DNA of 64,000 nucleotides from Celeribacter indicus (GTDB lineage Bacteria > Pseudomonadota > Alphaproteobacteria > Rhodobacterales > Rhodobacteraceae): NCBI RefSeq assembly GCF_000819565.1, contig NZ_CP004393.1, forward strand, positions 310,001 through 374,000, read 5' to 3'. The notes under the pieces are model-generated. The model was given only the letters and a program-made list of their open reading frames with translations, did not search any database and had not been told where the DNA came from. Below, piece after piece: positions 1,788 through 9,626 of this stretch; within the stretch, counting starts at the first letter, position 1; each line of letters opens with the position of its first letter. The position numbers were made by a program, and so were the translations under genes.

Positions 1788-1814
1788 TGAACCGCTCCGG
1801 GTTTGCCGGAGGCT
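1788..1814 (+). repeat. IS3-family left inverted repeat
   Basis: 27 bp, perfectly complementary to 3076-3102; starts TGAACCGCTCCGGGTTTGCC. Confidence 0.95.
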
Positions 1815-1840
1815 CCAACTCTTGAGTAGGATGGAGCATC

Positions 1841-2167
1841 ATGAGCAAGACAACGAACAAATATTCCCCTGAAGTGCGCGAGCGAGCGGTTCGTATGGTT
1901 TTGGACAACGCCGGTCAGCATGAGAGCCGCTGGCAAGCGATCGTATCGATCTCGGCGAAGATAGGCTGTTCGACGAACACGCTGAATGACTGGGTCAAAA
2001 AGGCAGAGATTGATCGTGGCGACCGTGCTGGGGTCAGTACCGAGATGGCCGAGAAGATGAAGGCGCTGGAGCGCGAGAACCGCGAACTCAAGCAGGCGAA
2101 TGAGATCCTGCGGAAGGCGTCGGCGTATTTTGCGATGGCGGAGCTCGACCGCCGACCGAAGTCATGA
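1841..2167 (+). CDS. IS3-family transposase OrfA
   Basis: A 108-residue DNA-binding subunit. A helix-turn-helix (about residues 8-55, including [16 protein letters not shown]) recognises the IS ends, followed by a leucine-zipper coiled coil (about 65-95, [20 protein letters not shown]) used for multimerisation. It overlaps orfB by four bases (ATGA), with orfB in the -1 frame. The full OrfAB transposase could therefore arise by -1 frameshifting, and free OrfB by coupled initiation. Confidence 0.93.
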
Positions 2168-3063
2168 TCGCCTTTATCGACGATTATCGTGGAGAGCTCG
2201 GGGTCGAGCCGATCTGCAAGCACCTGCCGATTGCCCCGTCCACATACTACGATCATCTGGCCAAACGGGCCGACCCTGATCTGCGCTCGGATCGGTTCAA
2301 GCGCGACGACGAGCTTCGCCCCGAGATCGAGCGCGTGTTCGATGAGAATTACAAGGTCTATGGCGTGCGCAAAGTCTGGCGCCAGATGCGGCGGGAAGGA
2401 TTTGATGTGGCCCGATGCACGATAGCCCGGTTGATGAAGGATTTGGGCCTGCAGGGCGTCATCCGGGGCAAGCCGCATAAAACGACGATCCCTGACAAGA
2501 AGCAGCCGTGCCCGATGGACAAGGTAAACCGGCAATTCCGGGTGCCGGCACCGAACATGCTCTGGGTCAGCGATTTCACCTATGTCGCCACCTGGCAAGG
2601 GTTCGTTTATGTGGCATTCGTGATCGACACGTTCGCGCGCCGGATCGTTGGGTGGCGCGTCAGCCGCACGGCTCACACAGGCTTCGTTCTCGACGCTTTG
2701 GAACAGGCTGTTCATCAGCGGCAGCCTGGTGTGGGACTGATCCATCACTCAGACCGCGGATCGCAATACCTGGCGATAAAATACACCGAACGCTTGGCCG
2801 AGGCAGGAATCGAACCCTCGGTCGGCAGCGTCGGTGACAGCTATGACAACGCTTTGGCCGAGACAATCAATGGTCTCTTCAAGGCGGAGGTCATCCACCG
2901 CCGTGGCCCGTGGCGCAGTCTGGACGCCGTGGAATACGCCACTCTGGAATGGGTCGACTGGTTCAACAATCGCCGCCTCCTCGAGCCCATCGGGAACATC
3001 CCACCAGCGGAAGCAGAGGCAAACTTCTACGCAGCTCTGGTAACTAAGACCATAGCCGCATAA
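2164..3063 (+). CDS. IS3-family transposase OrfB (DDE integrase catalytic domain)
   Basis: A 299-residue rve-type catalytic subunit. An HTH_21-like N-terminal part (to about residue 110) includes the [14 protein letters not shown] motif. The RNase-H-like core then shows the DDE triad: D in WVSDFTYV, D in HHSDRGSQY, and E in [13 protein letters not shown]. The C-terminal [20 protein letters not shown] is typical of the family. The gene is intact, so the element may still be active. Confidence 0.95.
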
Positions 3064-3075
3064 CTTAAACCAAAC

Positions 3076-3102
3076 AGCCTCCGGCAAACCCGGAGCGGTT
3101 CA
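3076..3102 (-). repeat. IS3-family right inverted repeat
   Basis: 27 bp, perfect inverted copy of 1788-1814. Confidence 0.95.
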
Positions 3103-3934
3103 GATTGTGCTCTTCCATAGCTTTCAGTGTGTTTCGAGCCTTCTGGAAAGCGCTTTCGAAATTTTTAAGGTCATCTTTTGTAAACTCGCTATCTGGAAAA
3201 TCATCGGACTCGGCATCCTCGATGTCGGCTTCGCTCTCAGGGAGCTGATCCTCGTCAAAGTCATATTTCGCATAAAGCTCATCAATGTGGCTTTGAGGAA
3301 AGCCGACGAAATCGCTTTCCAACAGCACAAGCGCTAAGACAGAGATAAATTCGACGTCTTTCATCCGGGCAGACTTGGCTTGACTCGACACGCCGACATC
3401 TCGCCAAAAGGTTTCGTCCACTGCCTCTTTTTCAGCGCGGTTGATTAGCCAACCATCAAAGCGAGCATGGCGAAGCTCCTGCTCTCCAAGTTTCTTCTGG
3501 TTCTTGTTGACCCTTTGAAAGACTTCGCCCCAATCGACCTCTGCCTCCGAGCGGATTTGTTCGACCATGAAAATGTAGTTGTAGAAGTGTGTTTTGTCTT
3601 CGTCACTGATTTCAATGAATTTCTTGCCTCGCAGCCGGGCAACGCTGAAGTCTTTGCCGATGCGAATTTTCCCGGCATGAAAATCCAAGACCGTGCTCAA
3701 CCTTTGTTTGCCGTCGACAACATTGTAGAGGGGCCCTTTTGCCGTATTTTCCTTTTGAAGGTAGACAGCTGGGCACGGGTAGTTATTGAAGATTGTGTCA
3801 AGGAAGAATTGCTTATCCTTGTAAGTCCATACACTCTTCCTCTGATAGGGCGGATCAAATTCGAGGCGATTTTGTGTCTGCATGTCGATGAACCACGAAA
3901 GGTCCTGCTGATTGGGGTTGCGGTGAAACGCCAT
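3103..3934 (-). pseudogene. DUF262 (GmrS/ParB-like) protein, 3' end removed by IS
   Basis: About 277 native residues remain before the frame enters the IS element and picks up eleven foreign residues. The DUF262 core is present: LEFDPPYQRKSVW near the N-terminus and VVDGKQRLSTVLDF, a variant of the DGQQR nucleotide-binding/nuclease motif. DUF262 proteins are usually longer and often continue into or pair with an HNH (DUF1524) half, as in GmrSD and BrxU restriction enzymes that attack modified phage DNA. Here any C-terminal half is gone, so the gene is probably inactive. A restriction remnant nearby fits a decayed defence locus. Confidence 0.75.
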
Positions 3935-4114: not shown

Positions 4115-4142
4115 GTAAGCGGCGTCTGCGCCCCACCGGAGT

Positions 4143-5699
4143 TCAGCTTGACGGCGTGAAGTTCCACGGCAGGAGCTCGTCGATTCGGTGCGCAGGATGG
4201 CCTGCCGCGATCGCCTCGAGCGTCGCCTTGAGGTAGGCGAAGGGCTCCACGCTGTTGATCTTTGCGGTGGCGATGAGCGAGGCGATGCGGCCCCAGGTGC
4301 GTCCGCCTTCATCGTGCCCAGCAAAGAGTGCGTTCTTCCGTGTCAGGGCGATCGGCCTGATGAGGTTCTCCACGGCATTGGAGTCGATCTCGACGCGGCC
4401 GTCCTGCAGGAAGGTCTGCAGCCCGTCCCACTGCCGGTGGATGTAGGCGAGTTTCTCTCCGAGGCGGGACTTGGCGGAGACCCGGCGGCGCTGGAACTGC
4501 AACCATTCGCCGAACTCGGCCACCAGCGGCGCGGTGCGTGTCTGTCTCGCCGACAGGCGCTGTCCCGGTCCCATGCCGCGGATCTCGGTCTCGATACGGT
4601 AGAACTCGGCGATCCGGCGCAGCCCCTCGGCGGCGACCTCCGATCCGTCGCGGTCAAAGACTTCCTTCAGCTTTCGGCGCGCATGTGCCCAACAGTGTGC
4701 AACCGTGATCGGCGCCCCGCCCGTGCGCGAGGGGCGCGTCAGCCGATCGTAGCCGGCATAGCCGTCCAGCTGCAGGATGCCGTCAAAGCCCTGCAGGATC
4801 TGCTCCGCGTTCACGCCGGCGCGGCTCGGGTGATACGTGAAGACCACGCCGGGCGGGTCATCGCCGCCCCAACCCCGATCGTCTCGGGCCAGCGCCCAGA
4901 GGAAGCCGGTCTTCGTTCGGCCCCGCCCGGGTTCCAGAACCGGCGCCGTGGTTTCGTCCATGAAGAGCTTTCCCGAGCTCTTCAAATGCTCGGCGAGCCG
5001 ATCGACCACCGGGGCAAGGTGGAAGGCCGCGGTGCCGACCCAATCGGCGAGCGTGCTGCGCTGGAGCTCGATCCCAGAGCGCGCGAGGACCTGGCTCTGG
5101 CGATACAAGGGCAGATGGTCGGCGAACTTGGCGACGAGCACATGCGCGATGGCGCCCTCGGTCGGTAACCCGCCCTCGATCAGGTGGGCGGGGGCCGGAG
5201 CCTGGGTGATCCCTTCGGCGCAGGCACGACAGGCATACTTTGGCCGGACCGTCACGATGACGCGGAGCTGGGCCGGCACGATGTCCAGCCGCTCGCTGCG
5301 GTCCTCGCCGATCCGGTGCATCGTGCCGCAGCCGCACGGACAGTCCAGGCTGGCCGGCTCGATCACCTGCTCGGTCCGGGGGAGTCCTTCGGGCAGATTG
5401 CCTCGGTTGCGCCGGACGGTCTTGGCTCGCCGCGGACCGGACGAGGCCGGGGCGTCTTCATCCTGCTGCGCCTCGACCTCGGCAACGGCAGTTTCCAGGT
5501 CCTCGAAGGCCAGCTGCCGCTCGTCCTCGCTGAGCCTCTCGGACTTCTTGCCATGCACGACCTGGTTCAGCTCGGCGACGAGATGCTCGAGGCGCTTGTT
5601 GGCTTCCCTGAGTGCATCGCGCTCACGCAGCACGGCCAGAACAGCTTCACGCTGGTCTTCCGGAATGGCCGACAGGTCGAGGGATGGGGCGCTGGACAT
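4143..5699 (-). CDS. IS66 transposase TnpC
   Basis: A 518-residue DDE transposase. An N-terminal coiled coil and the IS66 helix-turn-helix region (VHGKKSERLSEDE) are followed by a zinc-binding segment (DCPCGCGTMHRIG and CRAC). The catalytic core begins near LFMDETTAPVLEPG (first Asp) and continues through LQLDGYAGYDRL (second Asp) to the region of VEIDSNAVENLIRPIALTRKN, which carries the catalytic Glu. It ends 28 bases inside the element. Length and motifs are complete, so it looks functional. Confidence 0.95.
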   Translation of the reverse strand: MSSAPSLDLSAIPEDQREAVLAVLRERDALREANKRLEHLVAELNQVVHGKKSERLSEDERQLAFEDLETAVAEVEAQQDEDAPASSGPRRAKTVRRNRGNLPEGLPRTEQVIEPASLDCPCGCGTMHRIGEDRSERLDIVPAQLRVIVTVRPKYACRACAEGITQAPAPAHLIEGGLPTEGAIAHVLVAKFADHLPLYRQSQVLARSGIELQRSTLADWVGTAAFHLAPVVDRLAEHLKSSGKLFMDETTAPVLEPGRGRTKTGFLWALARDDRGWGGDDPPGVVFTYHPSRAGVNAEQILQGFDGILQLDGYAGYDRLTRPSRTGGAPITVAHCWAHARRKLKEVFDRDGSEVAAEGLRRIAEFYRIETEIRGMGPGQRLSARQTRTAPLVAEFGEWLQFQRRRVSAKSRLGEKLAYIHRQWDGLQTFLQDGRVEIDSNAVENLIRPIALTRKNALFAGHDEGGRTWGRIASLIATAKINSVEPFAYLKATLEAIAAGHPAHRIDELLPWNFTPSS

Positions 5700-5753
5700 G
5701 GCGGGATCATACCCTGCTCCCGTCTTCGGCAGGCAGGCTTTCCCGCCCCTGAG

Positions 5754-6101
5754 TCATTCTGCCACAGCCGGGCGGCGCGCTTCCAGGGACCGCACCCGCC
5801 GCCAATCCAGCCCGGCGAACAGCGCCTCGAACTGGGCGCGGTTCAGCGTCATCGCCCCATTCCGGATCGCGGGCCAGGTGAAGGTGCTCTCTTCCAGCCG
5901 CTTGTAGGCCATGACGAGGCCGCTGCCGTCCCAGAACAGGATCTTCATCCGGTCCGCGCGCTTCGCCCGGAAGACGAAGACCGTCCCGGTGAACGGATCC
6001 TCGGCCAGGGTCGACTGCACCAGGGCGGCCAGGCCATCATGTCCCTTGCGGAAGTCTACCGGCTTCGTCGCCACCAGGATGCGGACGCCTTGGGACGGCA
6101 T
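5754..6101 (-). CDS. IS66 accessory protein TnpB
   Basis: A 115-residue IS66 Orf2-like protein of unknown biochemical role needed for transposition. The family signature is clear: VDFRKGHDGLAALVQ, FRAKRADRMKILFWDGSG and YKRLEESTF. The start was set at the ATG that overlaps the tnpA stop by one base (TGATG), which implies coupled translation. Confidence 0.93.
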   Translation of the reverse strand: MPSQGVRILVATKPVDFRKGHDGLAALVQSTLAEDPFTGTVFVFRAKRADRMKILFWDGSGLVMAYKRLEESTFTWPAIRNGAMTLNRAQFEALFAGLDWRRVRSLEARRPAVAE

Positions 6102-6520
6102 CAGCACGTCGGTGCTTCCAGAGCATGCACGATCGCCGCGATCCGATCTGCCGGTGTGTCGGGCGACAGCTCGATCTGCATCGCTCCCCTGATAATCCGG
6201 ATCATATGCTCGGGCGTCGCGCTCGCCGGCCCGCTCATCTCGGCCGGATCGCAAACGACCAGCGGCGTGAAGACAGGACCGCCGATCTCCTCGGCGGGGA
6301 GAACCAGCTGTCCCTGCTTTGCTAAGCGCCGCCAGGCGGAGAGCTGGTTTGGGCGGATGCCATACCGACCGGCCACAGCATACACTGTCGCCCCCGGCTC
6401 CAAGGTCTCTGCCACAGCGCGAGCCTTAGCATCGTCCGGCCAGCGCCGGTGACCCGACGCGTAGATCTCGACGCCCAGAGATTTGAGAAACGAATTTGTG
6501 GCGCACATTGCGAAACGCAC
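6101..6520 (-). CDS. IS66 accessory protein TnpA
   Basis: A 139-residue IS66 Orf1. It has an N-terminal helix-turn-helix of the transposase_8 type (about residues 25-70, including VYAVAGRYGIRPNQLSAWRR) and a less conserved acidic C-terminus. It is the first gene of the IS66 operon and would bind the element ends. An alternative start at the second methionine (residue 5) is possible. Confidence 0.85.
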   Translation of the reverse strand: MRFAMCATNSFLKSLGVEIYASGHRRWPDDAKARAVAETLEPGATVYAVAGRYGIRPNQLSAWRRLAKQGQLVLPAEEIGGPVFTPLVVCDPAEMSGPASATPEHMIRIIRGAMQIELSPDTPADRIAAIVHALEAPTC

Positions 6521-6593
6521 TCCCCATCATGAGATGGGTATCACCTCGCAGCGCCAGAGCTCATCTACAACGTGGGCCGCAGACGCCGCTTAC

Positions 6594-6601
6594 CACTCTT
6601 C
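6594..6601. repeat. Target-site duplication of IS66 (right copy)
   Basis: CACTCTTC, identical to 4107-4114, directly after the IS66 right end. Confidence 0.95.
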
Positions 6602-6923
6602 GTTGGGCGCATCCCATGATCTGCCCACAATAACAAGCGCCCACCAGACTACTGCGACGTTCGAAGAGTTCTGGGCAGAGAAGCGCGAAGCGGCATTCCA
6701 AGCGATTTACATAGAAGAAAGGTTGGATCGTGAAGGTTTTGCCGGGTTGCTGGAAGCTTATCAGTTTTCCAGCAAGCGCCCGCTGACCGATGAGGTAATT
6801 GCGATCATGGCCGAAGTGCCCGGCATTCTTCCGCGAGAACCCTCTGTGGAGCGCGTTGCGAAACGGATGGTCGACTTCATCGAGTCCTTTGAAGAAGGGA
6901 TGGGAGACATTGAAGGGGTATAG
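6602..6923 (+). pseudogene. C-terminal remnant resembling type I restriction subunit HsdR
   Basis: About 105 residues in an open frame entering from the IS66 element. The helical, acidic pattern (TFEEFWAEKREAAF, RLDREGFAGLLEAY, PLTDEVIAIM, VERVAKRMVDFIESFEEGM) resembles the C-terminal helical domain of type I restriction motor subunits (HsdR). On the other side of the IS the same frame has a TGA at 4101-4103, six bases before the target site, so no upstream part of a large gene can be joined to it. It is most likely a leftover of a deleted restriction locus. The family assignment is from pattern only. Confidence 0.45.
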
Positions 6924-7035: not shown

Positions 7036-7782
7036 CTATGCAGCGAGGATGTCGGCATCTAGGCTTAGGGTTCGGGGGTCGATTAGGTTTTGTTCGTCAT
7101 CGCCAGAGTTGTTGAACGCATAGAGAGACGCAACTTTTTCACCGTCCCATGAATACCTGAAGTGCTCTCCTTGAATAGCTCGATCAAGGACATCGCCGTC
7201 CGTTACGCAGATACGAATGCCGCTTGGTCGCTCGGTGGAACGGAATAGCACGCCTGACAGACCTTCCGCCATGGCGCGCTCCAATAGTGACTTTCCAAGT
7301 TTACGCCGCTCCGACTGGGAAAGTTCGACGGATACCGCCCGCAGGTCCAGAAACTGACCAGATACCTTTCGGCTCAACATTCGCATGTCTAGTCCGGTCG
7401 GAGCTTCTGCTGTGCGATTAAGAAATAGCTCTCGCTTCGCGACAGAGACCGCCAAAGCAGTCTGTTTATCTTGCGACATTTCCAGGCAGCGTACGAACCG
7501 ATCGAAGAACCAACTCCCTTCCGGGTTCGAATAGGCGAACGGAGCATGGTTCCAGTTTTGAAAACGTGGAGACGCATCGTCTACGGCTACACCCCATTGC
7601 CCGAGCAGGCGCTGCTTTTCCTTGACACGCGGATTGTGAAGTTCTGCGACCGCTGCAACCTCATCGTCATGCCCACCCGCTATGCGCTGATAAAGCGGTA
7701 CGGGTGGGAAACGCGAAGGTATAAGTACATAGAAGACATCGTTGATTTGCGTGACACCAAAGTCATCCGCCGCGTTGTGCAT
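7036..7782 (-). CDS. RES-domain toxin
   Basis: A 248-residue RES protein. RES toxins (MbcT, Rse) deplete NAD+ in the cell. The domain spans most of the protein: an N-terminal FYVLIPSRFPP strand, the APFAYSNPEGSWFF segment, FLDLRAVSVEL, GLSGVLFRSTERPSGIRICV near the core end, and the late YSWDGEKVASLY. It overlaps the upstream antitoxin gene by 20 bases, in the usual antitoxin-toxin order. The start was placed at the ATG; a TTG one codon earlier is possible. It is somewhat longer than typical RES toxins and the glycine-rich N-terminal motif is modified. Confidence 0.8.
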   Translation of the reverse strand: MHNAADDFGVTQINDVFYVLIPSRFPPVPLYQRIAGGHDDEVAAVAELHNPRVKEKQRLLGQWGVAVDDASPRFQNWNHAPFAYSNPEGSWFFDRFVRCLEMSQDKQTALAVSVAKRELFLNRTAEAPTGLDMRMLSRKVSGQFLDLRAVSVELSQSERRKLGKSLLERAMAEGLSGVLFRSTERPSGIRICVTDGDVLDRAIQGEHFRYSWDGEKVASLYAFNNSGDDEQNLIDPRTLSLDADILAA

Positions 7783-8155
7783 CAAGGTATTCTCTCACTT
7801 TGTAGATATCGACAACGTTTCCATCGAGCATCACGTCGAGTGCGCTTCGATTATCGAAAAAAGCGTTAGGCTTTTTTACCCATTCATCGGCCGCTTCAGG
7901 GTTGGGCAGGACTATCTGCAGAGATTTGTAAATGCCGAGCAAGTGAGAAATACGCTCAATAGTATCGTGGGGGAGATTACCCCCCGATTTCTTCCACTTG
8001 AAGAAAGTTGAGCGCCCTGGCGAGCCAAGCAGCGTAATCTGTTCATCAGTCGAGAGCTCCCAGTCTTCCGCAAGCCTAGAAAAAGCGTCCATGATGGCTG
8101 GAATCCTAAACGCTTCCGCGCCTTGTCCGGGCGCAGAGCCTATGTGTGATTGCAT
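7763..8155 (-). CDS. Xre/MbcA/ParS-type antitoxin of the RES toxin
   Basis: A 130-residue antitoxin. An Xre-like helical DNA-binding part (about residues 25-85, RLAEDWELSTDEQITLLGSP and STFFKWKK) is followed by the toxin-binding domain (NPEAADEWVKKPNAFFDNRS, then LDVMLDGNVVDIYKVREYLD), whose LG/NP-W-x3-PN pattern is diagnostic of the MbcA/ParS/Xre family. A strong AGGAGG ribosome site precedes the chosen ATG. It would neutralise the RES toxin by capping its active site and repress the operon through the AGTCC repeats upstream. Confidence 0.85.
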   Translation of the reverse strand: MQSHIGSAPGQGAEAFRIPAIMDAFSRLAEDWELSTDEQITLLGSPGRSTFFKWKKSGGNLPHDTIERISHLLGIYKSLQIVLPNPEAADEWVKKPNAFFDNRSALDVMLDGNVVDIYKVREYLDAQRGG

Positions 8156-8177
8156 GAATCCTCCTGCCGTCCTCTTT

Positions 8178-8226
8178 TGGACTTGACTGTCAAAAAAGTC
8201 CTTATATAGACTGTCCATATAGGGAC
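8178..8226. promoter_or_regulatory. Probable operator/promoter between the Xre-RES and TIR operons
   Basis: On the minus strand the 50 bases before the antitoxin leader hold GTCC-CTATAT-GGAC, AGTC-TATATAAG-GACT and a further GTCAAGTCC: several AGTCC/GGACT half sites around a TATATA core. Such repeated half sites fit autoregulation by the Xre antitoxin. The divergent small-protein gene starts about 55 bases away, so the same sites could also affect it. Confidence 0.5.
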
Positions 8227-8280
8227 TCAATGGAAGTATTAGTCCACTCAGTTCAAAATGCAACAGAAAGGAGCAGTTCA

Positions 8281-8499
8281 ATGGCTGGTAAGGGAAATGG
8301 TGGCGGTGGATACCGCAGTGCAAAATCTGGCCGCTACGTGACAAAGTCGTACGGGAAGTCGCATCCGCGGACGACAGTGAAGGAGGCGCCGGGGAAGAGC
8401 GGATCAACCAATGGGAGTTATCGCAGCGCTATCAGTGGCCGGTTCGTTACTGCGAAGCACGGCAAGGCGAATCCGAACACCACTGTCCGAGAGAGATAA
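8281..8499 (+). CDS. Small GRYVT-repeat protein, function unknown
   Basis: A 72-residue basic protein made of two copies of one unit: YRSAKSGRYVTKSYGKSHPRTTV and, 40 residues later, YRSAISGRFVTAKHGKANPNTTV, joined by a Gly/Ser/Lys linker. No membrane segment or signal peptide is visible. A clear AGGAG site lies eight bases before the ATG. It is followed after 90 bases by the TIR-protein gene in the same direction, so the two probably form an operon. Similar short proteins are often left as hypothetical; I infer no activity. A role as partner or regulator of the TIR protein is speculation from position. Confidence 0.7.
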   Translation: MAGKGNGGGGYRSAKSGRYVTKSYGKSHPRTTVKEAPGKSGSTNGSYRSAISGRFVTAKHGKANPNTTVRER

Positions 8500-8588
8500 C
8501 CAATGAGTATTTCAGACGATGGTTAACAACAGCAAATATGCATCCGCATTTCCGCCAAGTCGGGCCGCGGTGAAATAAAGGAAAAAGC

Positions 8589-9308
8589 ATGGCTAGATGC
8601 ACGGCACCAGTATACGGTCACAGATCAGCGGCAGCAGCGGCCAATTGTCCCGCATGTGGAGGACGTTACGGTCGATCTAGAAGCTACGGCGGGTTCGGCG
8701 GCGGATATAGCAGTTACGCTTCAAGCGCTCCTCCTTCGCGCTCTTCAGGGAGCAGTAGTAGGGCCAGCGGTGGCGCAGGCCGTCGCACCGTGAAACCGCG
8801 GTGGTCGGGTGCTAGTTCGGCTATGTTGTATACGCCTGAGCAAGTGCTGGCGCTCACGCCGATTCGAGAAAATGTGGAGCACCTGGCAGCCTCCCAGCCT
8901 GATCTTCGAGACGTATTTCTCTGCCATGCTTGGGATGACAGGCAAGGCTCTGCCAAAGAACTGCATGACTTGCTCGAAGCCCAAGGTGTGCGCGTGTGGT
9001 TCAGTGAGAAAGATCTTGGCCTCGGTGTTCCAATGATGCGCGCAATTGATAGGGGCTTGGTAAATTCGCGCGTTGGTATCGTTTTGGTGACACCCGCGAT
9101 GTTGCGACGACTACCAGCAGAAGGAGTCGCGGACAAAGAACTGTCTGCGCTCCTACGACGCGAGCGACTAGTCCCGGTTGTTCATGGAACAACCTATGAG
9201 GAGCTTGAGGCAGTTAGCCTTCTATTGGCGTCCAGGGCAGGTTTGAGTACTGCCGAAGAGTCGATGGCGGAAGTCGCGGCCAAGATCGCTGAGCTAATTA
9301 CCGCTTGA
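8589..9308 (+). CDS. TIR-domain protein with N-terminal zinc-ribbon-like motif
   Basis: A 239-residue protein. Residues 4-24 carry Cys4, His11, Cys20 and Cys23 (ending NCPACG), a zinc-ribbon-like knuckle. Residues 25-75 are a low-complexity Gly/Ser/Arg linker. Residues 108-215 form a TIR domain: DVFLCHAWDDR (first strand), VRVWFSEKDLGLG (BB-loop), RVGIVLVTPAML, and ADKELSALL, whose Glu184 sits where TIR NADases carry the catalytic glutamate. Bacterial TIR proteins commonly degrade NAD+ or make cyclic ADP-ribose signals in anti-phage defence. Ribosome site AAAGGAA before the ATG. The location beside a RES toxin and decayed restriction genes supports a defence role. Confidence 0.85.
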   Translation: MARCTAPVYGHRSAAAAANCPACGGRYGRSRSYGGFGGGYSSYASSAPPSRSSGSSSRASGGAGRRTVKPRWSGASSAMLYTPEQVLALTPIRENVEHLAASQPDLRDVFLCHAWDDRQGSAKELHDLLEAQGVRVWFSEKDLGLGVPMMRAIDRGLVNSRVGIVLVTPAMLRRLPAEGVADKELSALLRRERLVPVVHGTTYEELEAVSLLLASRAGLSTAEESMAEVAAKIAELITA

Positions 9309-9550
9309 TCGTTTTGGAAGGTCAAAGCGAGCCCTGCATGTTGCATGTACGGTTAGGTACGTGCCACGAAACGATCCCTGATGGTGTTCGGACGGATATC
9401 GCTTAGAGTTCAGTCACTGCAGCAGTGGAGCCATTTTTCAGTTAGCCAACCTTGACCAAGCAACTCTGCTGACCGAGATTGCACCAATGGACAGAAACCT
9501 GTCACAAATGGCCAAGTCGGGTGTCACCCGACAATCGTCATTTGGAGAAG
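9309..9550. other. Intergenic, with a 17-bp palindrome at 9516-9532
   Basis: No gene is visible. GTCGGGTG-T-CACCCGAC (9516-9532) is a perfect palindrome with a single central base, 20 bases from the encoded CCA end of the tRNA-Lys gene. Part of it (GGTGTCACCCGACA) matches 1244-1258 at the other side of the accessory block with one extra C there. Confidence 0.55.
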
Positions 9551-9626
9551 TGGTGAGCCGTGCAGGATTCGAACCTGCGACCCACTGATTAAAAGTCAGT
9601 TGCTCTACCAACTGAGCTAACGGCCC
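9551..9626 (-). tRNA. tRNA-Lys (anticodon TTT)
   Basis: A 76-base cloverleaf on the minus strand: acceptor GGGCCGT paired with ACGGCTC, D-arm GCTCAGTTGGTAGAGC, anticodon stem-loop CTGACTTTTAATCAG giving TTT, T-arm GCAGGTTCGAATCCTGC, and an encoded CCA. The accessory block lies directly downstream of its 3' end. Confidence 0.97.

Follow-up and report, generated by a model that had tools for sequence, protein, structure and literature searches.

A divergent Xre-RES pair and a conserved small gene precede a TIR gene in Celeribacter indicus, in an arrangement that suggests a switchable defense operon of exchangeable parts

The window, i.e., the whole stretch of 64,000 nucleotides that was analyzed (C1:310001-374000, from a genome of 4.97 Mb in six contigs), carries two genes that the original prediction described as a two-gene module. 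Both genes are real, with open frames on the plus strand from 8281 to 8499 and from 8589 to 9308, the small gene first. The small gene encodes a basic 72-residue protein of two units, referred to here as GRYVT, for which no family was found in four libraries. The second encodes a 239-residue protein in which a Cys/His knuckle and a Gly/Ser linker are followed by a TIR domain (Pfam TIR_2, PADLOC). The 89-bp gap between the genes contains an AAGGA that resembles a ribosome-binding site, and no terminator-like site was seen in it. The two-gene description proved incomplete, however, as it overlooked a divergent Xre-RES pair at 7036 to 8155. This pair consists of a 130-residue Xre protein, the antitoxin or DNA-binding half (7763 to 8155, minus strand; Pfam Xre_MbcA_ParS_C, 46.3 bits, and Xre-like-HTH, 36.3 bits), and a 249-residue RES-domain protein, the toxin or co-repressor half (7036 to 7785, minus strand; Pfam RES, 35.4 bits against a cut-off of 23.2). 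The start of the Xre gene in the window was placed according to an annotated relative in L115. The xre and res cistrons overlap by 23 bases with the antitoxin first, and both products score above the curated Pfam cut-offs, giving the RES domain and Xre/MbcA/ParS antitoxin in overlapping cistrons that mark a RES-Xre system. Between the Xre start and the ribosome-binding site of GRYVT lies a 124-bp stretch (8150 to 8273) that contains two copies of GGACT-N13-AGTCC, one at 8179 to 8201 and the other, 44 bp further on, at 8223 to 8245. These promoter palindromes, again as in RES-Xre systems, are putative operators. The first overlaps the -35-like TTGACT of a candidate sigma-70-like promoter for GRYVT and TIR (TTGACT, 18 bp, TAGACT; 8183 to 8212, plus strand), which is a consensus match only, one having been seen against 0.7 expected in shuffles. 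Past the TIR gene there is a weak terminator-like hairpin (9414 to 9428, plus strand; one seen against 1.3 expected by chance).

The right edge of the island is formed by a tRNA-Lys gene (9551 to 9626, minus strand) with its 3' end towards the island, and the genes to the right of it look chromosomal by eye. The remnants of other defense genes that had been predicted for the island are present, namely an apparent fragment of 289 residues with a GmrSD N-terminal domain (3065-3934, minus strand; PADLOC NsnA, 103 bits) and the HsdR C-terminal fragment of a type I restriction subunit (6483-6923, plus strand; EcoR124_C, E 1e-5). Adjoining the GmrSD fragment is an insertion sequence (1788-3102) with perfect 27-bp terminal inverted repeats and two overlapping frames, IS3-like by eye with no search behind the name. 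A three-gene element that looks IS66-like by eye occupies 4115-6593, and the 22-bp inverted repeats that flank it are 95% complementary. The two longest exact or near-exact inverted repeats are consistent with insertion-sequence ends, and no convincing direct repeats marking the ends of the island were found.

The TIR protein scored 58.6 bits with Pfam TIR_2 (cut-off of 28) and 385 bits over residues 1-238 with the PADLOC model PDLC00424 ('ThsB1|ThsB'). Its family is very common, with at least 8000 relatives at E 0.001; this is a lower bound, as only the 8000 candidates with the most common words were scored and all 8000 passed. The family spans phyla, and the members of a 54-row alignment are 62-88% identical to the window TIR. 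The three features predicted for this protein stood up to the comparison. The residues of the knuckle (Cys4, His11, Cys20, and Cys23) are kept in 54 of 54 aligned relatives, the Gly/Ser linker is present and predicted to be disordered (pLDDT below 50 for residues 26-63), and Glu184, the residue placed at the NADase position, is kept in 53 of 54 and lies within a K-E-L motif that, by sequence alignment, matches the KEL motif of the solved TIR 3h16. The one exception, L003:6001-6714, has Lys at residue 184 and is by identity the nearest of the 54 to the window TIR. Seven distinct solved TIR sequences match the protein by profile (E 9e-18 to 3e-16). In comparison with two solved bacterial TIRs, 3h16 (listed as a TIR protein) and AbTIR 8g83, the TIR domain is common to all (E 2e-17 and 3e-16, respectively), whereas the window protein adds the N-terminal Cys/His knuckle and the disordered linker. 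It differs further from bacterial TIRs in that it lacks the tryptophan of W-x-x-x-E, the usual TIR motif. The AlphaFold model has a mean pLDDT of 75, with better values in the TIR domain. From these alignments, the protein is a plausible NADase in a defense island, and we infer that the knuckle binds zinc and that the TIR domain has NADase activity.

GRYVT is likewise as predicted, basic (pI 11.1, charge of about +13) and built of two copies of one unit that share 16 of 26 residues. An alternative in-frame ATG at 8230 would give a protein of 89 residues; the 72-residue form is favored, as at least 90% of 105 aligned relatives retain the Met encoded at 8281. Comparison with seven close copies gave dN values of 0.06-0.10 and dS values of 1.2-2.3 or saturated; therefore, the protein itself is under strong purifying selection and the gene is a true one. 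Of 525 candidates, 494 qualified as relatives at E 0.001. Searches of Pfam, PADLOC, NCBIfam, and PHROGs with E up to 1 returned no family name, and the search for solved relatives gave no credible match (best E 0.033). The structural model (pLDDT 73) shows two strand-helix-strand units but is too uncertain to argue from alone. Charge and smallness alone lead us to guess at nucleic-acid binding as the favored role. Literature searches of titles and the starts of abstracts gave nothing that names GRYVT or an Xre-RES controller of immune operons, and searches by GRYVT motif strings gave unrelated work only. A phage origin was considered and rejected, as none of 50,697 phage records matched GRYVT at E 1e-5 and viral contigs gave two relatives and no exact double operator. 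Weak relatives with a single unit (L144-L146) lie beside genes of ordinary appearance, so members of the wider family may also serve other purposes.

GRYVT was found in 57 plasmid records at E 0.01, 27 of which were read; 27 of the remaining 30 are Actinobacteria by genus name. The loci read include near-copies (L133-L135 and L137-L138). The next gene on the same side encodes TIR in seven of the 27 loci (full-length in six, only the front part in L139), DUF3892 in three, DUF1883 in two (one architecture), and a CBASS CD-NTase in two, in L116 after an 80-aa ORF; these and all other tallies of GRYVT neighbors are raw counts. One locus each contains DUF1778 with GNAT, multiubiquitin with E1, DUF2188, PD-T7-1, a weak PDC-M14A match, DUF3800, DUF2513, and an 86-aa protein that is HNH-like by eye (weak Pfam matches only). 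In the other five (L129, L130, L133-L135), the gene after GRYVT is unrecognizable or there is none. Effector names are those of the database records except where PADLOC, in which ten proteins were run, confirmed them. This was the case for the cyclase (649 bits) and the 2TM effector (257 bits) of the L116 CBASS and for PD-T7-1 of L126 (497 bits). E1-E2 of L115 scored 28 bits, and the multiubiquitin, DUF6527, DUF2235, GNAT, and dCTP-deaminase-like proteins had no PADLOC match.

A controller lies directly upstream of GRYVT in 18 of the 27 plasmid loci (WYL in eight, HTH with ImmA in eight, and Xre-RES in two) and is absent from that position in nine. The WYL genes most like that of L122, with an identity of at least 70%, come from 11 plasmid records, two near-copy pairs among them; GRYVT is immediately downstream in 10, the exception being H167. 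Two WYL records of lower identity, L160 and L161, have no annotated GRYVT there and are absent from the GRYVT records. A palindrome-like sequence, GGGTGACAGCTTTTGACACCC, was noticed between the WYL gene and GRYVT in L123 (3866-4000) and L131 and, in varied form, in L125 and L122; it is a candidate WYL operator. Divergent HTH and ImmA genes were also seen before DUF2188 in the TIR loci L002, L004, L006, and L030.

The linkage of Xre, RES, the 124-bp stretch, and GRYVT was found in five loci, i.e., the window, L104, L105, L115, and L117, two of which are close relatives (L105 and L115, dS 0.29), and none of the four others has a TIR gene. The window Xre is 87-88% identical in L104 and L105, and copies 75% identical to the window RES lie opposite GRYVT in G126 and G128. 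The close RES subfamily (E 1e-50) is present in three of 149 family genomes, divergent from GRYVT in all three. Among 87 plasmid records with RES, only two exceed 60% identity, and both lie opposite GRYVT. The 124-bp stretch aligns gap-free in five of five loci. Half-sites (GGACT/AGTCC) number four each in the window, L105, L115, and L117 and three exact ones in L104, against means of 0.17-0.25 in mononucleotide shuffles. In the window, L105, and L117, the offsets of the four are 29, 47, 73, and 91; in L115, none is at 47, and the fourth match is at 62. In the window's own 4.97-Mb genome, GGACT-N13-AGTCC has two sites, both located here, as compared to seven for the backward control pattern; the palindromes had been noticed before they were counted. 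A search of 394 family genomes for the double palindrome, with up to one mismatch allowed, found it in three, which are those that carry the RES subfamily (149 of the 394 were spanned by the RES search). The genes behind the stretch differ from locus to locus, with TIR in the window and multiubiquitin with E1 in L105 and L115. In L104, a KorA-like ORF (below the Pfam cut-off) and an unknown ORF are followed by a dCTP-deaminase-like gene, and in L117 there is a set of nucleotidyltransferase, SLATT, and DUF2235 genes that resembles the L116 CBASS operon; the PADLOC runs covered L115 and the CBASS genes of L116.

The expectation that GRYVT and TIR occur together held in part. They lie side by side in the same direction, with a full-length TIR, in nine loci including the window, so adjacency does recur, but it is not exclusive. 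Among the best 80 of at least 528 genome loci sampled from the TIR side, 74 have the 500 bp or more of upstream sequence that makes them usable, and GRYVT precedes TIR in two of these (L024 and L039), leaving 72 of 74 usable TIR loci without it. The 149 family genomes contain GRYVT in seven and TIR (E 1e-40) in seven, with both in one, the window's own. In 385 class genomes, GRYVT is present in four, TIR (E 1e-50) in three, and both in two, the own genome and G176, where they are 1.5 Mb apart; a family search around G176 (12 genomes) returned only G176 itself (1/12) and added nothing. An exclusive GRYVT-TIR module was rejected on the locus and family-genome counts. On a 101-row TIR tree, the nine GRYVT-linked TIRs require four changes, at least two of them forced, and one of 500 label shuffles gave as low a number. 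Six of the nine belong to one plasmid clade, all behind a WYL regulator. Based on the locus, genome, and tree counts, the adjacency recurs but is loose.

The window GRYVT is 92% identical to the copies in L106 and L114, which precede DUF1778-GNAT, 88-90% to those of L104, L105, and L115, 88% to that of L116, which precedes CBASS, and 81% to that of L117. These seven closest copies among those read (81-92%) all precede genes other than TIR, whereas identity to the other eight copies beside full-length TIR and the one beside a remnant is 55-66%. Copies before DUF3892 (62-70%) and before other genes (48-70%), in hosts that are mostly more distant, are hardly closer than the TIR-linked ones. Since the hosts of the closest copies belong to the window's own family or are named Rhodobacterales, host kinship may explain part of this pattern. 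The window TIR, in turn, is 88% identical to the L003 TIR, whose upstream neighbors are other small genes. The simplest reading of these identities is that parts have been reshuffled between loci.

The explanation that we consider probable is a switchable defense operon of exchangeable parts, in which a controller and a GRYVT cassette drive an interchangeable effector, here a TIR NADase. The divergent Xre-RES pair would act at the shared promoter, where it would bind both GGACT-N13-AGTCC palindromes and repress its own genes as well as the GRYVT-TIR operon. Phage attack or another stress would lead to loss of the Xre-RES complex and thus turn the operon on. By analogy with the TIR family, the TIR protein would then consume NAD+ via Glu184, and the infected cell would be killed or a signal made. 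GRYVT would be the first gene of the switched transcript. Comparison across this small sample of loci indicates that GRYVT travels with the controller and not with the effector, and because the switch looks interchangeable among unrelated anti-virus systems, GRYVT seems to be part of it and not the private partner of TIR. Our guess is that GRYVT is a nucleic-acid binder that helps whichever effector follows, and not a sensor dedicated to TIR. More tentatively, and at somewhat less than even chances, GRYVT may represent an undescribed, effector-independent common component of controller-driven immune operons that remains with the switch, with one effector replacing another behind it (TIR, CBASS, ubiquitin-like, PD-T7-1, and others).

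Three other explanations were weighed. The original prediction proposed a two-gene module in which the zinc-ribbon half or the small protein could be the sensor, and a dedicated system of this kind would make GRYVT the sensor, the activator, or the inhibitor of the TIR effector with its Cys/His knuckle. The nine same-direction adjacencies, the tree and shuffle results, and the stability of WYL-GRYVT-TIR over the six rows of one plasmid clade speak for it, and within that clade a specific partnership could hold. Nevertheless, GRYVT occupies the same slot before many unrelated defense genes, its seven closest copies all precede genes other than TIR, and most usable TIR loci and all but one of the family genomes lack the combination, so that we regard a dedicated system as unlikely. 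It is quite unlikely, in our judgment, that the locus is a decaying island in which an ordinary RES-Xre toxin-antitoxin pair and unrelated passengers came to lie beside a tRNA by chance. The two insertion sequences on the left, the two restriction gene fragments there, and the tRNA-Lys at the edge would fit such decay, but all four genes (Xre, RES, GRYVT, and TIR) are conserved with open frames, five loci keep the 124-bp stretch base-phased, and purifying selection on GRYVT is strong.

The full-length match of the TIR protein to PDLC00424 raises the further possibility that it is a Thoeris ThsB making a cyclic ADP-ribose signal for a distant ThsA, with GRYVT a bystander. By this model score, it does belong to the same protein family as ThsB. 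In contrast, PF18185 (STALD), which we take to be the marker of ThsA, had no match in the window's own genome (G000), so the window genome lacks the SIR2-STALD ThsA of Thoeris and membership in that system was rejected. STALD was found in nine of the 79 genomes with this TIR that were searched (42 + 37, own included; L037 and L076 lie outside this set), which shows that the search is able to detect it, although its 14 control genomes were silent. In eight of the nine, the STALD and TIR loci could be compared, and they coincide in one fetched locus, L028, where the STALD gene lies directly behind a separate gene that is ThsB-like by eye. For PF20016, the macro-domain ThsA of type II, G000 and the 14 control genomes were alike silent, and a ThsA of that type may be present. 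On the STALD results, we regard the Thoeris reading as very unlikely.

The preferred explanation, an exchangeable operon under Xre-RES control, can be placed beside two kinds of known system. In P. putida, repression by the Xre-RES complex takes place at a palindromic repeat, and a second site has been suggested (PMC12204516); another RES-Xre pair, GndRX, is active during genotoxic stress and decreases NAD+ (PMC12457610). These pairs have in common with the window both domains, the overlapping cistrons with the antitoxin first, and promoter palindromes; the promoter region of the window differs in that it also serves a divergent GRYVT-led operon, as it does in all five subfamily loci read. The second kind comprises the Cap controllers (CapW, CapH+CapP, and CapK+CapS), which adjoin interchangeable immune operons (PMC13373217, PMC9122588), CapW binding promoter palindromes (PMC9122588). 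As with these, the Xre-RES regulator adjoins the promoter of immune operons that differ between loci, the promoter contains palindromes as it does for CapW, and HTH with ImmA and WYL genes fill the same slot in other GRYVT loci. In the window, however, that slot holds an Xre-RES pair, not a homolog of CapW, CapH+CapP, or CapK+CapS, and the operon starts with a small conserved GRYVT gene; neither an Xre-RES pair in the controller slot nor a leading GRYVT was found in the parts of the Cap-controller literature that were searched. Xre-RES may thus work like a Cap controller, though it is none of the named ones. An immune operon that kills its host needs a switch, and the known switches respond to DNA damage. 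If true, an NAD-directed toxin-antitoxin switch before an NAD-directed TIR would link two NAD-based layers, and a tiny protein before many unrelated immune effectors would offer a handle on a step common to them. The short control stretch with its two palindromes makes the switch directly testable.

Several other genes were observed beside TIR or GRYVT. A 345-aa protein with no Pfam match precedes TIR in 10 rows of one 13-row clade (L011, L015, L025, L035, L036, L037, L043, L045, L046, and L051) and is a steadier partner of TIR than GRYVT. A 72-aa protein family precedes TIR in five genomes (L009, L012, L013, L016, and L021), and since Pseudoxanthomonas L012 pairs with Rhizobium L013 on the TIR tree (fork 94/83), transfer is suggested. 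An 86-87-aa Cys/His protein (CEVCG..HHDRYD..CRLHH) follows WYL-GRYVT-TIR in L122, L125, L131, and L136, and in L128 it comes after GRYVT, with no TIR.
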